Assembly (NCBI RefSeq): GCF_001544355.1 | Contig: NZ_BCQI01000034.1 | Coordinates: 1 to 32,891 of the forward strand | Source: Alicyclobacillus acidiphilus NBRC 100859 | GTDB lineage: Bacteria > Bacillota > Bacilli > Alicyclobacillales > Alicyclobacillaceae | Direction of reading: 5' to 3' | Length of the DNA stretch: 32,891 bases | Part shown: positions 1 to 17,410 of the stretch, one piece after another | Layout of the letters: every line of letters starts with the position of its first letter | Position numbering within the stretch: the stretch's first letter is position 1 | Notes under the pieces: model-generated | The model's input: the letters and a program-made list of their open reading frames with translations, nothing else | The model's database searches: none | What the model was told of the DNA's origin: nothing | Program-made: the position numbers and the translations under genes

Positions 1-4
1 CTCA

Positions 5-62
5 GAGACGCTTATTTTCCCCATTTTGTCTGTTTTTGTTCGAATAAGCGGCCCACGGCCGC
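5..62 (+). repeat. 58-bp direct repeat, copy 1 (partner at 362-419)
   Basis: Bases 5-62 match 362-419 exactly by eye, an offset of 357 bp. The repeat starts inside one palindrome (the GAGACGCTT arm), crosses a T-rich spacer and ends inside a second palindrome (AATAAGCGGCC-CAC-GGCCGC). The duplicated unit therefore includes the sequence between two palindromes, not just a palindrome. Confidence 0.9.
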
Positions 63-361
63 CTATTCGTCCCGCTCCATTCGATCTGCTCCATGTGCGG
101 CGAGTCGGAAGCCGCGCGAGGTGACAAAGTGGCATCGGGACGGCATGGGCAGGCGCGATCGGGCGGATCGCGGGGGCGGCCCGGGTCGTGGGCGGCTCGC
201 AGTGTGGCGTGTGGCGTGTGGTGTGTGACGCGGCAAATAAGCAGCCGTGGGCCGCTTATTTGTGTCGAATCGTCTGATCTGCGATGGACAAGCGGCCCAG
301 GGCCGCTTAAATCGCTCCCAAGGGCCACGCTCCACCCGATTTCGGAGAAATAAGCGTCTCT

Positions 362-423: not shown

Positions 424-526
424 CCGCCGCTCTTATCCGCCGCTCTTATCCGCCGCACCATCCGCCCCACACCATTCGCCGCGCACCATTCGCCCCACAC
501 CATTCGCCCCACACCATTCGCCGCAC
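424..526 (+). repeat. Short tandem repeats (13-bp and 14-bp units)
   Basis: A 13-bp unit (CCGCCGCTCTTAT-like) is repeated between about 424 and 456. Five 14-bp units of the form ACCATTCGCCCCAC follow at 457-470, 471-484, 485-498, 499-512 and 513-526, with small changes. They lie just downstream of the ABC-F stop codon. No coding role is supported. Confidence 0.85.
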
Positions 527-551
527 ACTCCATCCCGCAGCCCTCAGCGGC

Positions 552-5827: not shown

Positions 5828-6591
5828 CGCGGGATGGAGCGGGAACGGGGCCCGGTGCGGGAAAGGAAGCGGGAGCCGGTACGGGAGCGCCTGCGCGCGG
5901 CGGCCGAGACGGAAGCGACGGCCGCATGGAAGGCCCGCGGGTGATTGGCATCATTGGCTACCAGGATGCCGGGAAGACGACGGTGGCCGAGGCCCTCATT
6001 CGCATGGCTTCCGCGCGGGGGCTGCGCGTGGCGTTGATCAAGCACGACGGGCATGCGGACGACGGGCGCACGCCCTCCTGGGAGAAGCCGGGATCGGATA
6101 CGGAGCGAGCCGCGGCAGCGGGCGCGCGGTGGACGATGATCGCCAGCCGCGGCGGCTGGCTGTTGCACGATTGGACGGCGTCTGAGCAAGATGCCGAGCA
6201 GTGGCTCGGCGTGTTGCGTCGATCCGTGGGGCATGCGTGGGCCGAGATCGACCTGATTGTCGTGGAAGGCGCGAAACGGAGCCCCTTCCCGAAGGTGGCC
6301 GTGGTGCGCAATGACGCCGAATGGACCCGCTTGGCAGCCGCCTCGCGCGGCGTGGTGGCGATCGTGACGAGTGAAGACACCCGCGATTGCAGCGGATCCG
6401 GCGGGCGGCAGGCAGTCGGTGAGCGGCAGGCAGTCGGCGAGCGGCAGGCAGTCGGTGAGCGGCAGGCAGTCGGTGAGCGGCAGGCAGTCGGTGAGCGGCA
6501 GGCAGTCGGCGTGCCTGTGTTGCGGCCCCACGAGGTCCAGGAACTGCTGAATCTCGTTCTTGCCTCGGCTGTCACCGTGGTAAGAGATTGA
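5824..6591 (+). CDS. mobB: MobB, molybdopterin-guanine dinucleotide biosynthesis adaptor
   Basis: P-loop GTP-binding protein of 255 aa that assists MobA. Walker A GYQDAGKTT (45-53) is followed by the family's IKHDGH motif and by DLIVVEGAKRSPFPKV. The ATG at 5824 overlaps the upstream stop as ATGA and gives a Gly/Ala-rich N-terminal tail of about 34 residues. An alternative ATG at 5926 would give a more usual 221-aa protein, though with a weak ribosome site. Oddity: residues 195-230 are six in-frame copies of the hexapeptide RQAVGE (the last ends in V), from an 18-bp tandem repeat just before the C-terminal helix. The repeat preserves the frame, so the gene appears intact. Confidence 0.9.
   Translation: MTRDGAGTGPGAGKEAGAGTGAPARGGRDGSDGRMEGPRVIGIIGYQDAGKTTVAEALIRMASARGLRVALIKHDGHADDGRTPSWEKPGSDTERAAAAGARWTMIASRGGWLLHDWTASEQDAEQWLGVLRRSVGHAWAEIDLIVVEGAKRSPFPKVAVVRNDAEWTRLAAASRGVVAIVTSEDTRDCSGSGGRQAVGERQAVGERQAVGERQAVGERQAVGERQAVGVPVLRPHEVQELLNLVLASAVTVVRD
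6406..6513 (+). repeat. Six 18-bp tandem repeats inside mobB
   Basis: Units start at 6406, 6424, 6442, 6460, 6478 and 6496 with consensus CGGCAGGCAGTCGGTGAG. Units 2 and 6 have C for T at position 15; unit 6 ends GTG instead of GAG. Near identity at the DNA level, including third positions, points to recent slippage expansion. It encodes RQAVGE repeats. Confidence 0.97.
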
Positions 6592-6602: not shown

Positions 6603-6848
6603 GACTCCGCCGTCTTGGAGGCTTTCCATCGGCTCGCGGCTAGATAAGCGGCTCAAGCAGGCTTATTTGCGTCGAATGGGCGGACTTGAGGAAAATAAGC
6701 GGCCAAGGAACGCTTATTCGCCCTGAAAGGTCCGGAACGGACCGGTTCCAAGCCAAATAAGCGGCCGAGGGCCGCTTATTTCGCCGCGGATGTTTGGATT
6801 CGACACATTTAAGCGGCCGAGGGCCGCTTATTTCGCCACCTTCGATCC
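6603..6848 (+). repeat. 246-bp direct repeat, copy 1
   Basis: Begins GACTCCGCCGTCTTGG and ends CCTTCGATCC. It matches 6885-7130 at an offset of 282 bp with about three substitutions seen by eye (near 6619, 6756 and the second copy's last palindrome). It contains four palindromes of the local family and a GGTCCGGAACGGACC inverted motif. Confidence 0.93.
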
Positions 6849-6884
6849 GTCGTCGTGGCTCTACGACCTGGACTTCGCCACTGG

Positions 6885-7130
6885 GACTCCGCCGTCTTGG
6901 GGGCTTTCCATCGGCTCGCGGCTAGATAAGCGGCTCAAGCAGGCTTATTTGCGTCGAATGGGCGGACTTGAGGAAAATAAGCGGCCAAGGAACGCTTATT
7001 CGCCCTGAAAGGTCCGGAACGGACCGGTTCCAAGCCAGATAAGCGGCCGAGGGCCGCTTATTTCGCCGCGGATGTTTGGATTCGACACATTTAAGCGGCT
7101 GAGGGCCGCTTATTTCGCCACCTTCGATCC
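6885..7130 (+). repeat. 246-bp direct repeat, copy 2
   Basis: Second copy, separated from the first by 36 bp of unrelated sequence (6849-6884). The near identity of non-coding DNA implies a recent duplication or ongoing conversion. Confidence 0.93.
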
Positions 7131-7259: not shown

Positions 7260-7286
7260 TTAGCACTCGTTGACGTTGAGTGCTAA
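7260..7286 (+). promoter_or_regulatory. CIRCE operator (HrcA binding site)
   Basis: Perfect match to the family consensus: TTAGCACTC (7260-7268), 9-bp spacer, GAGTGCTAA (7278-7286). It implies heat-inducible control by HrcA, whose gene is not in this window. Confidence 0.98.
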
Positions 7287-7622: not shown

Positions 7623-9269
<1,647 letters not shown>

Positions 9270-9612: not shown

Positions 9613-11139
9613 ATGCAAACCAGAGCAAATTCGACGGCTGAGGTGCGCGTTGCTCCGGTCTTCGGTGTCATGTTGGCGGGTGCGTTCGTCGCATTTTTGA
9701 ACCAAACCTTGATCAATGTCGCGTTGCCGCAGATTATGGATCGACTGCATATTTCAGCGACGACAGGCGATTGGCTGACCACGATTTTCCTGTTGGTCAA
9801 CGGTATTGTCATCCCTATCACCGCGTTTCTCATTCAACGCTTTACCACTCGCCAACTTTATCTGACTGCGCTTGGCCTCTTTACGCTCGGTACAATCGTG
9901 TGCGGAATCAGTCCTACATTCGGCGTGCTTCTTGTAGGGCGTGTCATTCAGGCAACTGGTTCAGGCGTTCTCATGCCAGTCATGATGAATACCATCTTCC
10001 GGCTGTTTCCAGCGGAACGGCGCGGTATGGCGATGGGTATTTTCGGAATCGCGCTCAACTTTGCGCCGGCTGTCGGTCCTACCTTGTCCGGGTGGATCGT
10101 GCAAACCTATTCGTGGCGAATCCTGTTCTTCATCATCGTGCCGATCGCGCTGATCGACTTCATTCTTGCCATCTTTCTGATGCGCAATGTCACGGTCACC
10201 AGTCGACCGAAACTGGACGTGTTTGGCGTGGTGCTCTCGACGTTGGGCTTCGGTGGACTGCTGTACGGCTTCAGTGAAGCGGGAACGGTTGGTTGGAGCG
10301 GGATCGACGTGATCGCAAGCTTGTGCATCGGGGCGGTGAGTCTGATTGGGTTGGTACTGTGGCAATTGCGCACGGACACACCAATCATGGAATTCCGGAT
10401 TTTCCGCTATCCGATGTACGCATTGACGACCGCCATCAACGTCATTCTGTCTGTGGCGCTGTATTCCGGCATGATTTTGATGCCAATTTACATGCAAAAC
10501 GTTCGAGGGTTTTCGCCGCTTCTGTCAGGTTTGATGCTGTTGCCAGGCGGTATTTTGATGGGTGTGATGTCGCCGATCACCGGGCGTTTGTTTGACAAGA
10601 TCGGCGCGCGCTGGCTCTCTGTTGTCGGCCTCGCGATCACGATTGTCACCACGTTCGCCTTGACCCGGCTGCACACGGATACGACGTTCCTGTATTGCAC
10701 CGTCGTGTACACGCTGCGGATGTTTGGCATGTCCATCATGATGATGCCGCTCATGACCGCAGGCTTGAACGAATTGCCGCTGCGTCTGAATCCATATGGC
10801 ACATCGATGCTCAACACGCTGCGTATGGTCTCTGGCGCCGTCGGTATGGCGCTATTGGTCACGGTCATGACGGATCGGGCAAAGACACATGTGAAAGACA
10901 TTATCGTTTCGCAGCACATATTGCCAACCGATAAACTCGCCATGGCGCACGCCACGGCGCAGGGTACGGTCATGGGCATCAACGACGCGTTCACGGTCGC
11001 GGTCTTCACGACCATCGCCGCCTTCTTGATGGCGTTCTTCATTCGCAAGACATCGCCAGCAGAGGATTTTTTGGCGAAGAACGATGCGCCGCGGCAACCG
11101 GCCCCGCCAACCGCCGCCCCTGCCGTAGCCAGGGACTGA
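9613..11139 (+). CDS. DHA2-family multidrug efflux MFS transporter
   Basis: Membrane protein of 508 aa with about 14 hydrophobic segments, the size and topology of the EmrB/QacA/LmrB drug:H+ antiporter branch. Seen near the N-terminus is FLNQTLINVALPQI, the family's D1-type motif with N in place of the common D. Next comes GRVIQATGSGVLMPVMMNTI, then RRGMAMGIFGIALNFAPAVGPTLSGW, which carries the antiporter motif C (GPTLSG). The ATG at 9613 follows AAAGGAGAG; an in-frame upstream ATG at 9508 has no such site and lies over the likely promoter. It is a single-gene unit between the groESL terminator and a repeat block. No adaptor (EmrA) or regulator is adjacent. The substrate cannot be read from sequence. 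Confidence 0.93.
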   Translation: MQTRANSTAEVRVAPVFGVMLAGAFVAFLNQTLINVALPQIMDRLHISATTGDWLTTIFLLVNGIVIPITAFLIQRFTTRQLYLTALGLFTLGTIVCGISPTFGVLLVGRVIQATGSGVLMPVMMNTIFRLFPAERRGMAMGIFGIALNFAPAVGPTLSGWIVQTYSWRILFFIIVPIALIDFILAIFLMRNVTVTSRPKLDVFGVVLSTLGFGGLLYGFSEAGTVGWSGIDVIASLCIGAVSLIGLVLWQLRTDTPIMEFRIFRYPMYALTTAINVILSVALYSGMILMPIYMQNVRGFSPLLSGLMLLPGGILMGVMSPITGRLFDKIGARWLSVVGLAITIVTTFALTRLHTDTTFLYCTVVYTLRMFGMSIMMMPLMTAGLNELPLRLNPYGTSMLNTLRMVSGAVGMALLVTVMTDRAKTHVKDIIVSQHILPTDKLAMAHATAQGTVMGINDAFTVAVFTTIAAFLMAFFIRKTSPAEDFLAKNDAPRQPAPPTAAPAVARD

Positions 11140-11574
11140 GCGGACGGGGCTGGCGGGCAGCCATCGCGATCGCGCCGACCGGATGTGCCGGTGCTGGCGT
11201 GATCGCGGGCGCCGGAGGAGCCGGAGAGCCGGAGAGCCGGAGAGCCGGAGAGCCGGAGAGCCGGAGAGCCGGAGAGCCGGAGGAGAACAAGCCGCCGTCA
11301 GCCGCTTAAACGTGTCGAATCATCTTATTGGCGCCGAATAAGCGGCCCACAGCCGCTTAAGCCGCTGAAATCGCTCGGTTTCGGTGGCGCGGAGTCAAAT
11401 AAGGGGCCCAGAGCCGCCTATTTGCCTTCGACTCGGCCAGTTCGCGGAAATAAGCGGCCCTCGGCCGCTTATTTGCCCCTCCACCGTCACCCACCTTCGC
11501 GATCGCGTTGCTTAGCCGGCCCGTGCCCCGGGCCGCCCCCGCGATCGCGCTGTCCAGCCCGCCCTCAACTTGCG
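11140..11574. repeat. Intergenic palindromic repeat cluster 3
   Basis: No gene is supported. Copies of the TAAGCGGCC palindrome family occur at 11337-11360 (AATAAGCGGC/GCCGCTTAA), 11397-11423 (a degenerate copy with three changed arm bases) and 11448-11474 (a perfect AAATAAGCGGCC-CTC-GGCCGCTTATTT). A half copy next to GTGTCGAATC lies near 11300-11320. GCGATCGC occurs several times between 11165 and 11545. Confidence 0.85.
11221..11280 (+). repeat. Octamer tandem repeat (CCGGAGAG)7
   Basis: Seven perfect units of CCGGAGAG plus a final CCGG, 80 bp after the efflux gene's stop. It is non-coding and a likely slippage-prone microsatellite. Confidence 0.97.
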
Positions 11575-11619
11575 AAAAAGGATGTCAGTTTGGCCAAACG
11601 GCCAACCTGACATCCTTTT
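11575..11619. terminator. Long bidirectional terminator-like hairpin
   Basis: AAAAGGATGTCAG plus TTGGCC pairs with GGCCAA plus CTGACATCCTTTT: a 20-position stem with one mismatch and a 4-nt loop (AAAC, 11596-11599). A-tract on one side and T-tract on the other allow termination on both strands. It lies 92 bp beyond the stop of the minus-strand zinc-ribbon gene and 435 bp after the efflux gene, between two convergent units. Confidence 0.85.
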
Positions 11620-17201: not shown

Positions 17202-17218
17202 GAGTGCGTGATTCAGAC

Positions 17219-17289
17219 TCCTCGTATAATGTCGGGAATACGGCCCGACAGTCTCTACAAGGCAACCGTAAATTGCCTGGCTACGAGGT
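17219..17289 (+). ncRNA. Purine (guanine) riboswitch aptamer
   Basis: Three-way junction with P1 CCTCGTA/TACGAGG (17220-17226/17282-17288), P2 GTCGGG/CCCGAC (17231-17236/17244-17249) with a 7-nt loop, and P3 AGGCAA/TTGCCT (17260-17265/17273-17278) with a 7-nt loop CCGTAAA. The specificity nucleotide before TACGAGG is C17281, the guanine-type C74 (adenine sensors have U). J2/3 reads AGTCTCTAC and J3/1 reads GGC, each one base off the usual AGTTTCTAC and GAC. It controls guaA in cis: high guanine should switch expression off. Confidence 0.97.
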
Positions 17290-17410
17290 CGGATGAAGTA
17301 CGTCAGTCACAGACTTCGACTCCCAACGCCTGATTGTGGACCGAGTATTCGCGCATCCTAGCGATATCGGCCCACGCGGGCGGTGGGATCGTTTTGTTCC
17401 GACTGTCGAG

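Follow-up and report, generated by a model that had tools for sequence, protein, structure and literature searches.

The window, by which we mean the whole 32,891-nucleotide stretch that was analysed, is contig 34 of the Alicyclobacillus acidiphilus genome, which comprises 3,864,093 bases in 165 contigs. It carries a mobB-like gene, a CIRCE inverted repeat (7260-7286) upstream of groES-groEL, and a purine riboswitch (RF00167, 77.5 bits) at 17202-17303, upstream of guaA and a run of purine biosynthesis genes. A preliminary description of this DNA had reported about sixteen palindromes with a variable loop, lying in three intergenic blocks and in no gene. Palindromes with the core AAATAAGCGGCC-NNN-GGCCGCTTATTT occur 11 times in the window at up to three mismatches, with 0 expected from 100 shuffles, and 220 times genome-wide at the same threshold, with 0 for the reversed-pattern control, showing that the high-copy family is real. 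At up to seven mismatches the window has 17 palindromes plus a half palindrome at 1-17, close to the number first given. All of them are confined to the three intergenic blocks, outside any called gene, and the loop is indeed variable; the start of the third block is corrected from 11337 to 11285. The 17 palindromes form four groups of four and one member of a further group that the contig start truncates, and the starts in the complete groups are 51, 61-62 and 51-52 bases apart. The features are as follows, with bit scores referring to model R1:

1..68, plus strand: unit truncated at the contig start (palindrome 3 as its right half only, linker, and palindrome 4 at 42-68); 5'-cut match to positions 124-191 of 191 of R1; palindrome at 42 with 3 mismatches
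1-17: half palindrome at the contig start
235..425, plus strand: tetrad unit A, palindromes 235-261, 286-312, 348-374 and 399-425, spacing 51-62-51, 160.2 bits
262..271, plus strand: polar box GTGTCGAATC of unit A, box column identity 0.964
456..528, plus strand: C-rich 14-bp tandem repeat, 5.2 copies, right of unit A
6642..6833, minus strand: tetrad unit B, palindromes 6642-6668, 6693-6719, 6755-6781 and 6807-6833, spacing 51-62-52, 149.7 bits
6797..6806, minus strand: polar box of unit B
6924..7115, minus strand: tetrad unit C, tandem duplicate of B, palindromes 6924-6950, 6975-7001, 7037-7063 and 7089-7115, 145.2 bits
7079..7088, minus strand: polar box of unit C
11212..11282, plus strand: G-rich 8-bp tandem repeat, 8.9 copies, abutting unit D on the left
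11285..11474, plus strand: tetrad unit D, palindromes 11285-11311, 11336-11362, 11397-11423 and 11448-11474, spacing 51-61-51, 173.4 bits
11312..11321, plus strand: polar box of unit D

Units B and C are 282 bases apart and show 98% identity over 253 bases, and this tandem duplication is established. Such near-identical neighbours, together with several contigs that end inside units, might raise the suspicion that the pattern is a product of chance or of the assembly of repeated DNA. However, shuffled and reversed controls give 0 or 1, linkers and flanks vary widely, and the same layout is present in three 2-contig genomes (G012, G029 and G033), so that we regard an artefact as hardly credible.

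A repeating unit of four palindromes with a direction

The repeating element is a unit of about 190 bases (190-193) containing four palindromes with start-to-start distances of 51, 62 and 51 bases (±1). We examined 753,965 bases consisting of 20 stretches of 20 kb selected by position, 20 stretches around listed copies, and the window. These contain 174 palindromes at up to seven mismatches in 49 clusters, of which 41 have four palindromes in exactly this layout, two have two and six have one; eight of the 41 units come from the stretches selected by position. Within an allowed range of 45-68 bases, the spacings inside units are 50 (1), 51 (72), 52 (11), 61 (10) and 62 (31), and the fixed geometry is established. 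Among the eight clusters that are not tetrads, three are cut by contig ends (at 42 in the window, at 42 in L045, and in L042), two belong to a single tetrad in L049, the second palindrome of which does not reach the cut-off, and two (L021 and L030) are single 7-mismatch matches for which chance is possible. The eighth is a solo palindrome (L047:12871-12897), with a G-rich left and a C-rich right flank, upstream of a sensor-kinase-like gene; it may be a remnant of recombination between outer palindromes. Adjacent duplicate units are tallied separately throughout, except where distinct gaps are counted.

The half-site core in the A. acidiphilus genome is TAAGC-N11-GCTTA. The polar box GTGTCGAATC is found once per unit beside palindrome 1, with at least 8 of its 10 letters in 41/41 units, so that each unit has a direction. 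The TCGAAT flanks noted earlier are present and are part of this near-invariant box; likewise, the palindromes had been recognised correctly, while the fixed 51-62-51 tetrad that they build had been missed. A search for palindrome 1 plus the box at up to three mismatches gives about 159 units genome-wide (79 + 80; control 1).

Genomic placement and flanking sequences

In the 753,965 bases, 40 of the 41 complete units are clear of called genes, and the remaining one shares 16 bases with a weak ORF. Gene calls are those of a hexamer caller made for the analysis, not a published tool, which gives 82% coding. Gene overlaps of more than 40 bases are absent from units of three other genomes (0/20 in G015, 0/30 in G029 and 0/20 in G033), and the intergenic restriction is established in the stretches examined. 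The neighbour genes of 40 A. acidiphilus units are tandem for 21, divergent for 8, convergent for 6 and unknown for 5. The gaps of at least 60 bases in the same stretches are tandem in 230 cases, divergent in 71 and convergent in 50, and the distinct gaps that hold units are tandem in 15, divergent in 6 and convergent in 6. The orientation of genes flanking units thus resembles that of other gaps in this genome, and the suggested association of copies with gene ends is not borne out. The units of G033 and G029 lean to convergent gaps (6/11 and 4/10 gaps, respectively). A partner gene shared by the neighbourhoods was rejected, as the neighbours are varied and none was seen to be common to the 14 loci surveyed, 13 of which have called genes; this survey was read by eye, with a caller trained on the A. 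acidiphilus genome and with some loci that hold weak matches only.

Beyond the outer palindromes, the A. acidiphilus sequences are unrelated between units and consist mostly of tandem repeats, and a short tandem repeat is found no more than 200 bases away from 35 of the 41 units. G exceeds C on the left side (+0.32 in 40 bases) and C exceeds G on the right side (-0.42), whichever direction the unit points, and this skew fades over about 150 bases. The skew was rejected as a general part of the element; it is strong in A. acidiphilus, G029 shows it too, G033 weakly and G015 not at all, and three units of G191 have it reversed.

Constraint on the half-sites

The 41 units have a mean identity of 70%. 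Only nine pairs exceed 90% identity, namely eight between neighbours and one (96%) between units separated by 6.3 kb, and all remaining pairs are at most 87% identical. Pairwise column identity over 32 units is 0.95 in the core TAAGC/GCTTA and 0.96 in the box, compared with 0.71 in the inner arms, 0.50-0.57 in the linkers and 0.40 in the loop. The nine close pairs differ at 2/360 core, 2/90 box, 13/288 inner arm, 5/108 loop, 7/216 outer and 33/658 linker positions, and the difference between core and linker is significant (Fisher P 5e-5). The cores are nearly unchanged and the linkers vary, which means that the half-sites are kept in place as the linkers drift.

This constraint was measured on units found in part by their palindromes, a bias that is lessened, with an intact box still required, by a search for the box alone. 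At up to one mismatch, that search gives 110 boxes, 41 with palindrome 1 and 69 without it. Palindromes 2-4 beside the former match 27-30 of 30 core letters, and the other 69 reach at most 15, so that no half-decayed unit was met among the 110 boxes. The half-site constraint is established.

The same layout with other letters in related genomes

Tetrads in other genomes were recognised by a spacing-and-symmetry score. With this score, 15 shuffled stretches reach 57-62, 12 real stretches free of units reach 58-64, and one place in the window reaches 65; the cut-offs are 67 (64 for G033) or 66, and the lowest-scoring units also rest on a model match. Model R1 matches at least 11/61 genomes at E 0.01 when up to 42 candidates per genome are scored. 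The broader model R2, at E 0.001 with up to 63 candidates per genome scored, matches at least 13/41 genomes of the family, A. acidiphilus included, in 7/16 genera, and gives no match in 12/14 congeners. The further copies anticipated in the genome and in relatives therefore exist, and recurrence in other genera is established. Among 398 genomes sampled from the phylum, at least one besides A. acidiphilus, G191 of another family, matches at E 1e-4 with up to six candidates scored in each. Because of these limits on candidates, the genome counts are lower bounds and weak relatives are missed.

The letters of the half-sites change between these genomes and the spacing stays. Congener G012 has tetrads in 5/7 loci with half-sites TAAGGCA at 51-62-51, and the same half-sites and spacing are found in one unit of G006 (2/4 loci). 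G015 has 20 units with half-sites TAAGSGNCC at 51-62-51 (19) or 51-61-51 (1), and G029 has 30 units with half-sites TAAGCNCNT at 51-61-51 (24) or 51-62-51 (6), and three of these 30 form one array. The 19 units of G033 carry TAAGCNGC at 52-62-52 or 52-61-52, and those of G191 carry TAAGCCCA half-sites at 52-62/63-51/52 in 5/5 loci. The letters common to genomes with the layout are mainly TAAG, kept at 71-100% per position in five other genome sets.

Some further loci were noted. One more tetrad of G033 (L066:4119-4310, score 74) has half-sites TAACGTC in the same genome as the TAAGCNGC kind. G019 contains arrays of at least six palindromes (L069:896-1202 and L178) in which spacings of 52/62 or 51/62 alternate, as if the repeat were made up of pairs. 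G028 has tandem arrays of about 52 bp (L073:64-540 and L094) with a TAAGCCG...CGGCTTA-like palindrome and GGCGCGATCGCGCC, a different type of regular array of palindromes; these were rejected as secure tetrads, the matches being mostly to the plain 52-bp tandem array. Outside these groups, a scan of genome contigs shows the exact palindrome as three single palindromes in unrelated organisms, and the viral contigs, plasmids and phages scanned gave no match. The box GTGTCGAATC resembles a tRNA T-loop, and AGCGG the Chi sequence of B. subtilis; both likenesses were dropped, as these letters are not kept in other genomes.

Gain and mobility

The distance from the mobB stop codon to CIRCE is 669 bases in A. 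acidiphilus, where it includes two tetrads, and 57-96 bases in 13/14 congeners; in the 14th (G014), the pattern search gave no CIRCE. No tetrad scoring 70 or more was found at the mobB-groES locus of the 14 congeners, in which mobB is about 50% identical. The block is thus present at one locus where the congeners lack the element, and it was either gained in the A. acidiphilus lineage or lost in all others.

These copies, found at mobB-groES in A. acidiphilus only, would fit a purely selfish miniature mobile element, in which the tetrad is recognised by a transposase or recombinase in trans and the copies have no role in the cell. The patchy distribution of R2 matches over the family and its genera, the tandem duplicates and the 96% pair 6.3 kb apart point the same way. 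In addition, a G015 tetrad is enclosed in an element of roughly 447 bp (L140:1071-1517) whose inverted ends are TGAGACTGTC...GACAGTCTCA, and the end motif also stands inverted just before palindrome 1; the mobility in G015 may therefore belong to the larger inverted-repeat element. However, no conserved ends or terminal inverted repeats were seen outside the tetrad in the A. acidiphilus genome, and resident copies, even in close pairs, keep their cores while the linkers change, with no half-decayed unit met. Recent long-range movement was not seen among the 41 units, in which copies that are not neighbours are at most 87% identical apart from the one pair.

The search for transposases bears on the same question. 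Y1 transposase genes (PF01797) are present in G015 (4 matches, some broken) and G030 (3), which would agree with a selfish element, and G033 has 1 fragment, but none is found in the A. acidiphilus genome, which is 99.96% complete, or in G012, G019, G028, G029 and G031. On contig 318 of G030, a Y1 match (8616-8969) lies about 1.4 kb from a tetrad (10337-10527); the linked Y1/RAYT gene that the preliminary description had proposed to look for is absent from the A. acidiphilus genome itself. G029 has IS1182-family genes with an end similar to the inverted ends of G015. IS1182 was rejected as a general mobiliser, as its transposase is not detected at E 1e-20 in A. acidiphilus, G015, G019, G028, G030 and G031, which also speaks against the selfish element. 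Taken with the constraint on the cores, we regard a purely selfish element as unlikely, with perhaps one chance in four in its favour.

The Y1 genes of G015, G030 and, as a fragment, G033 also bear on the possibility that the palindromes are REP/BIME sequences spread by a RAYT transposase that has since been lost or is unassembled; the high copy number and the ordered groups of intergenic palindromes are as in BIMEs. The likeness to REP/BIME elements drawn at the outset holds in so far as the palindromes are dispersed, intergenic and of high copy number. It finds no support in the strict sense, since PF01797 was not found in the six genomes named above, no GTAG or CGTC tail stands on the palindromes in the 32-unit consensus, and a fixed tetrad stands in place of variable dimers or clusters. 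This origin is therefore very improbable.

Hairpins or sites in duplex DNA

Near-perfect GC-rich palindromes that are followed by TTATTT in many copies of the A. acidiphilus genome, with mismatches in only 3% of core stem positions, suggest at first sight a transcribed RNA of four hairpins, acting as a REP-like mRNA stabiliser, a processing site or bidirectional terminators. The arms do covary, as had been proposed, but the effect is small. Standard pairs fill 88.8% of arm cells in A. acidiphilus, compared with 87.2% after shuffling, an excess of 1.6 points, and the covariation score is 0.111 compared with 0.081; neither value is reached in any of 500 shuffles. A common arm mismatch lies in palindrome 3 at columns 121/137, in 18/32 units. 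Across 25 units of several genomes, the covariation is 0.261 compared with 0.159, as would be the case if a single recognition sequence governed both half-sites; a hairpin would give the same.

Core stem mismatches rise to 16-27% in four other genome sets and to 10% in G191, which argues against RNA hairpins, as does the small pairing excess within the genome. No Rfam family matches over a unit at the gathering score in the window and five loci. Bidirectional terminators, one of the first suggestions, find no support in A. acidiphilus, since 8 of the 35 units whose neighbour genes could be classified stand between divergently oriented genes and the arrangement as a whole is much like that of gaps generally. 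A terminator-like call overlaps 1 of the 17 window palindromes, in a scan that is blind to T runs inside the arm, as in TTATTT. That one overlap and the convergent lean of the G033 and G029 units remain on the side of RNA hairpins, which we judge improbable overall. We read the palindromes, from their sequence and short of proof, as dyad sites that would be used in duplex DNA rather than as hairpins.

A candidate complex of four phased dimer sites

The same geometry persists from genus to genus and extends to one genome of a second family, while the letters are consistent inside a genome and vary from one genome to the next. This combination indicates a trans-acting DNA-binding protein that should be findable by pull-down. 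We infer a bound protein, its cooperative occupancy of the sites, their phasing on one face and a role for the complex as follows. By arithmetic at 10.2-10.4 bases per turn, the spacings of 51, 62 and 51 bases correspond to about 5, 6 and 5 helical turns, which would place the four sites on the same side of the helix. A dimeric sequence-specific protein could fill the four sites (eight half-sites) together, and the filled element would fold or wrap into one compact nucleoprotein complex. If the specificity of the protein differs between lineages, the half-site letters would change and the geometry would stay. The element would enter new intergenic places as non-autonomous DNA and increase locally by tandem duplication, and the complex might serve the mobilisation of the element, the organisation of the chromosome, or both. 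A spreading gene-free element with four helically phased dimer sites for a candidate DNA-binding protein of lineage-varying specificity is the explanation we favour, and we put its chances at about even. Weighing against it are the pairing and covariation above all 500 shuffles, the fact that no recent long-range movement was seen, the larger inverted-repeat element of G015, the Y1 genes of G015 and G030, and the convergent lean of units in G029 and G033.

Interspersed palindromes of bacteria are commonly linked with RAYT transposases or regarded as repeats in decay. We propose, more tentatively, that the tetrad may represent a novel class of bacterial DNA element, with four phased dyads at 51-62-51 or 52-62-52, up to about 159 copies, and half-sites rewritten between genomes in step with a putative fast-evolving protein that forms four dimers. 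Such a class would offer a natural series for the joint change in specificity of a multi-site nucleoprotein complex and its sites. A full-text literature search, which included passages of PMC12306157, PMC3733652 and PMC2267715, yielded no description of such a tetrad, in keeping with the initial impression that the family is not a described one.

Comparison with known systems

In REP/BIME and REPIN families, according to passages of PMC3733652, a GTAG or CGTC tetranucleotide stands at one end of the palindrome. As those passages present them, these families share with the tetrad the short high-copy intergenic palindromes (20-40 bp in REP/BIME elements), the regular linkers and the tandem duplication with flanks. 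The tetrad differs in its one fixed 51-62-51 geometry, in the lack of such a tail, in that no RAYT gene was found in the A. acidiphilus genome, and in half-site letters that change between genomes while the geometry stays.

Prokaryotic MITEs such as BOX, RUP and Correia elements are small, gene-free, dispersed, intergenic and patchy among relatives, and the tetrad is all of these. In contrast to MITEs, no terminal inverted repeats are seen around it in the A. acidiphilus genome, and its internal dyads are strongly constrained; the G015 element has longer inverted ends. The parS sites, Noc sites and sopC repeats are short palindromes bound by dimeric proteins, arrayed or dispersed over the chromosome, and they resemble the tetrad in the number and arrangement of short dyad sites. 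Unlike these, the tetrad groups its sites by four, in proposed helical phase, on a 190-base element that spreads, and the protein that would bind them is a candidate. In the Lrp/AsnC octamer, four dimers wrap DNA over several phased sites, and the proposed tetrad complex would resemble it in this; the known Lrp sites are closer together than the tetrad palindromes.

Other features of the window

An 18-bp tandem repeat lies at 6400-6510, near the 3' end of the mobB-like gene. An inverted repeat at 11576-11619 (20 nt, loop of 4 nt, ends rich in A/T, complementarity 95%) has no relation to the tetrads and may be a terminator.
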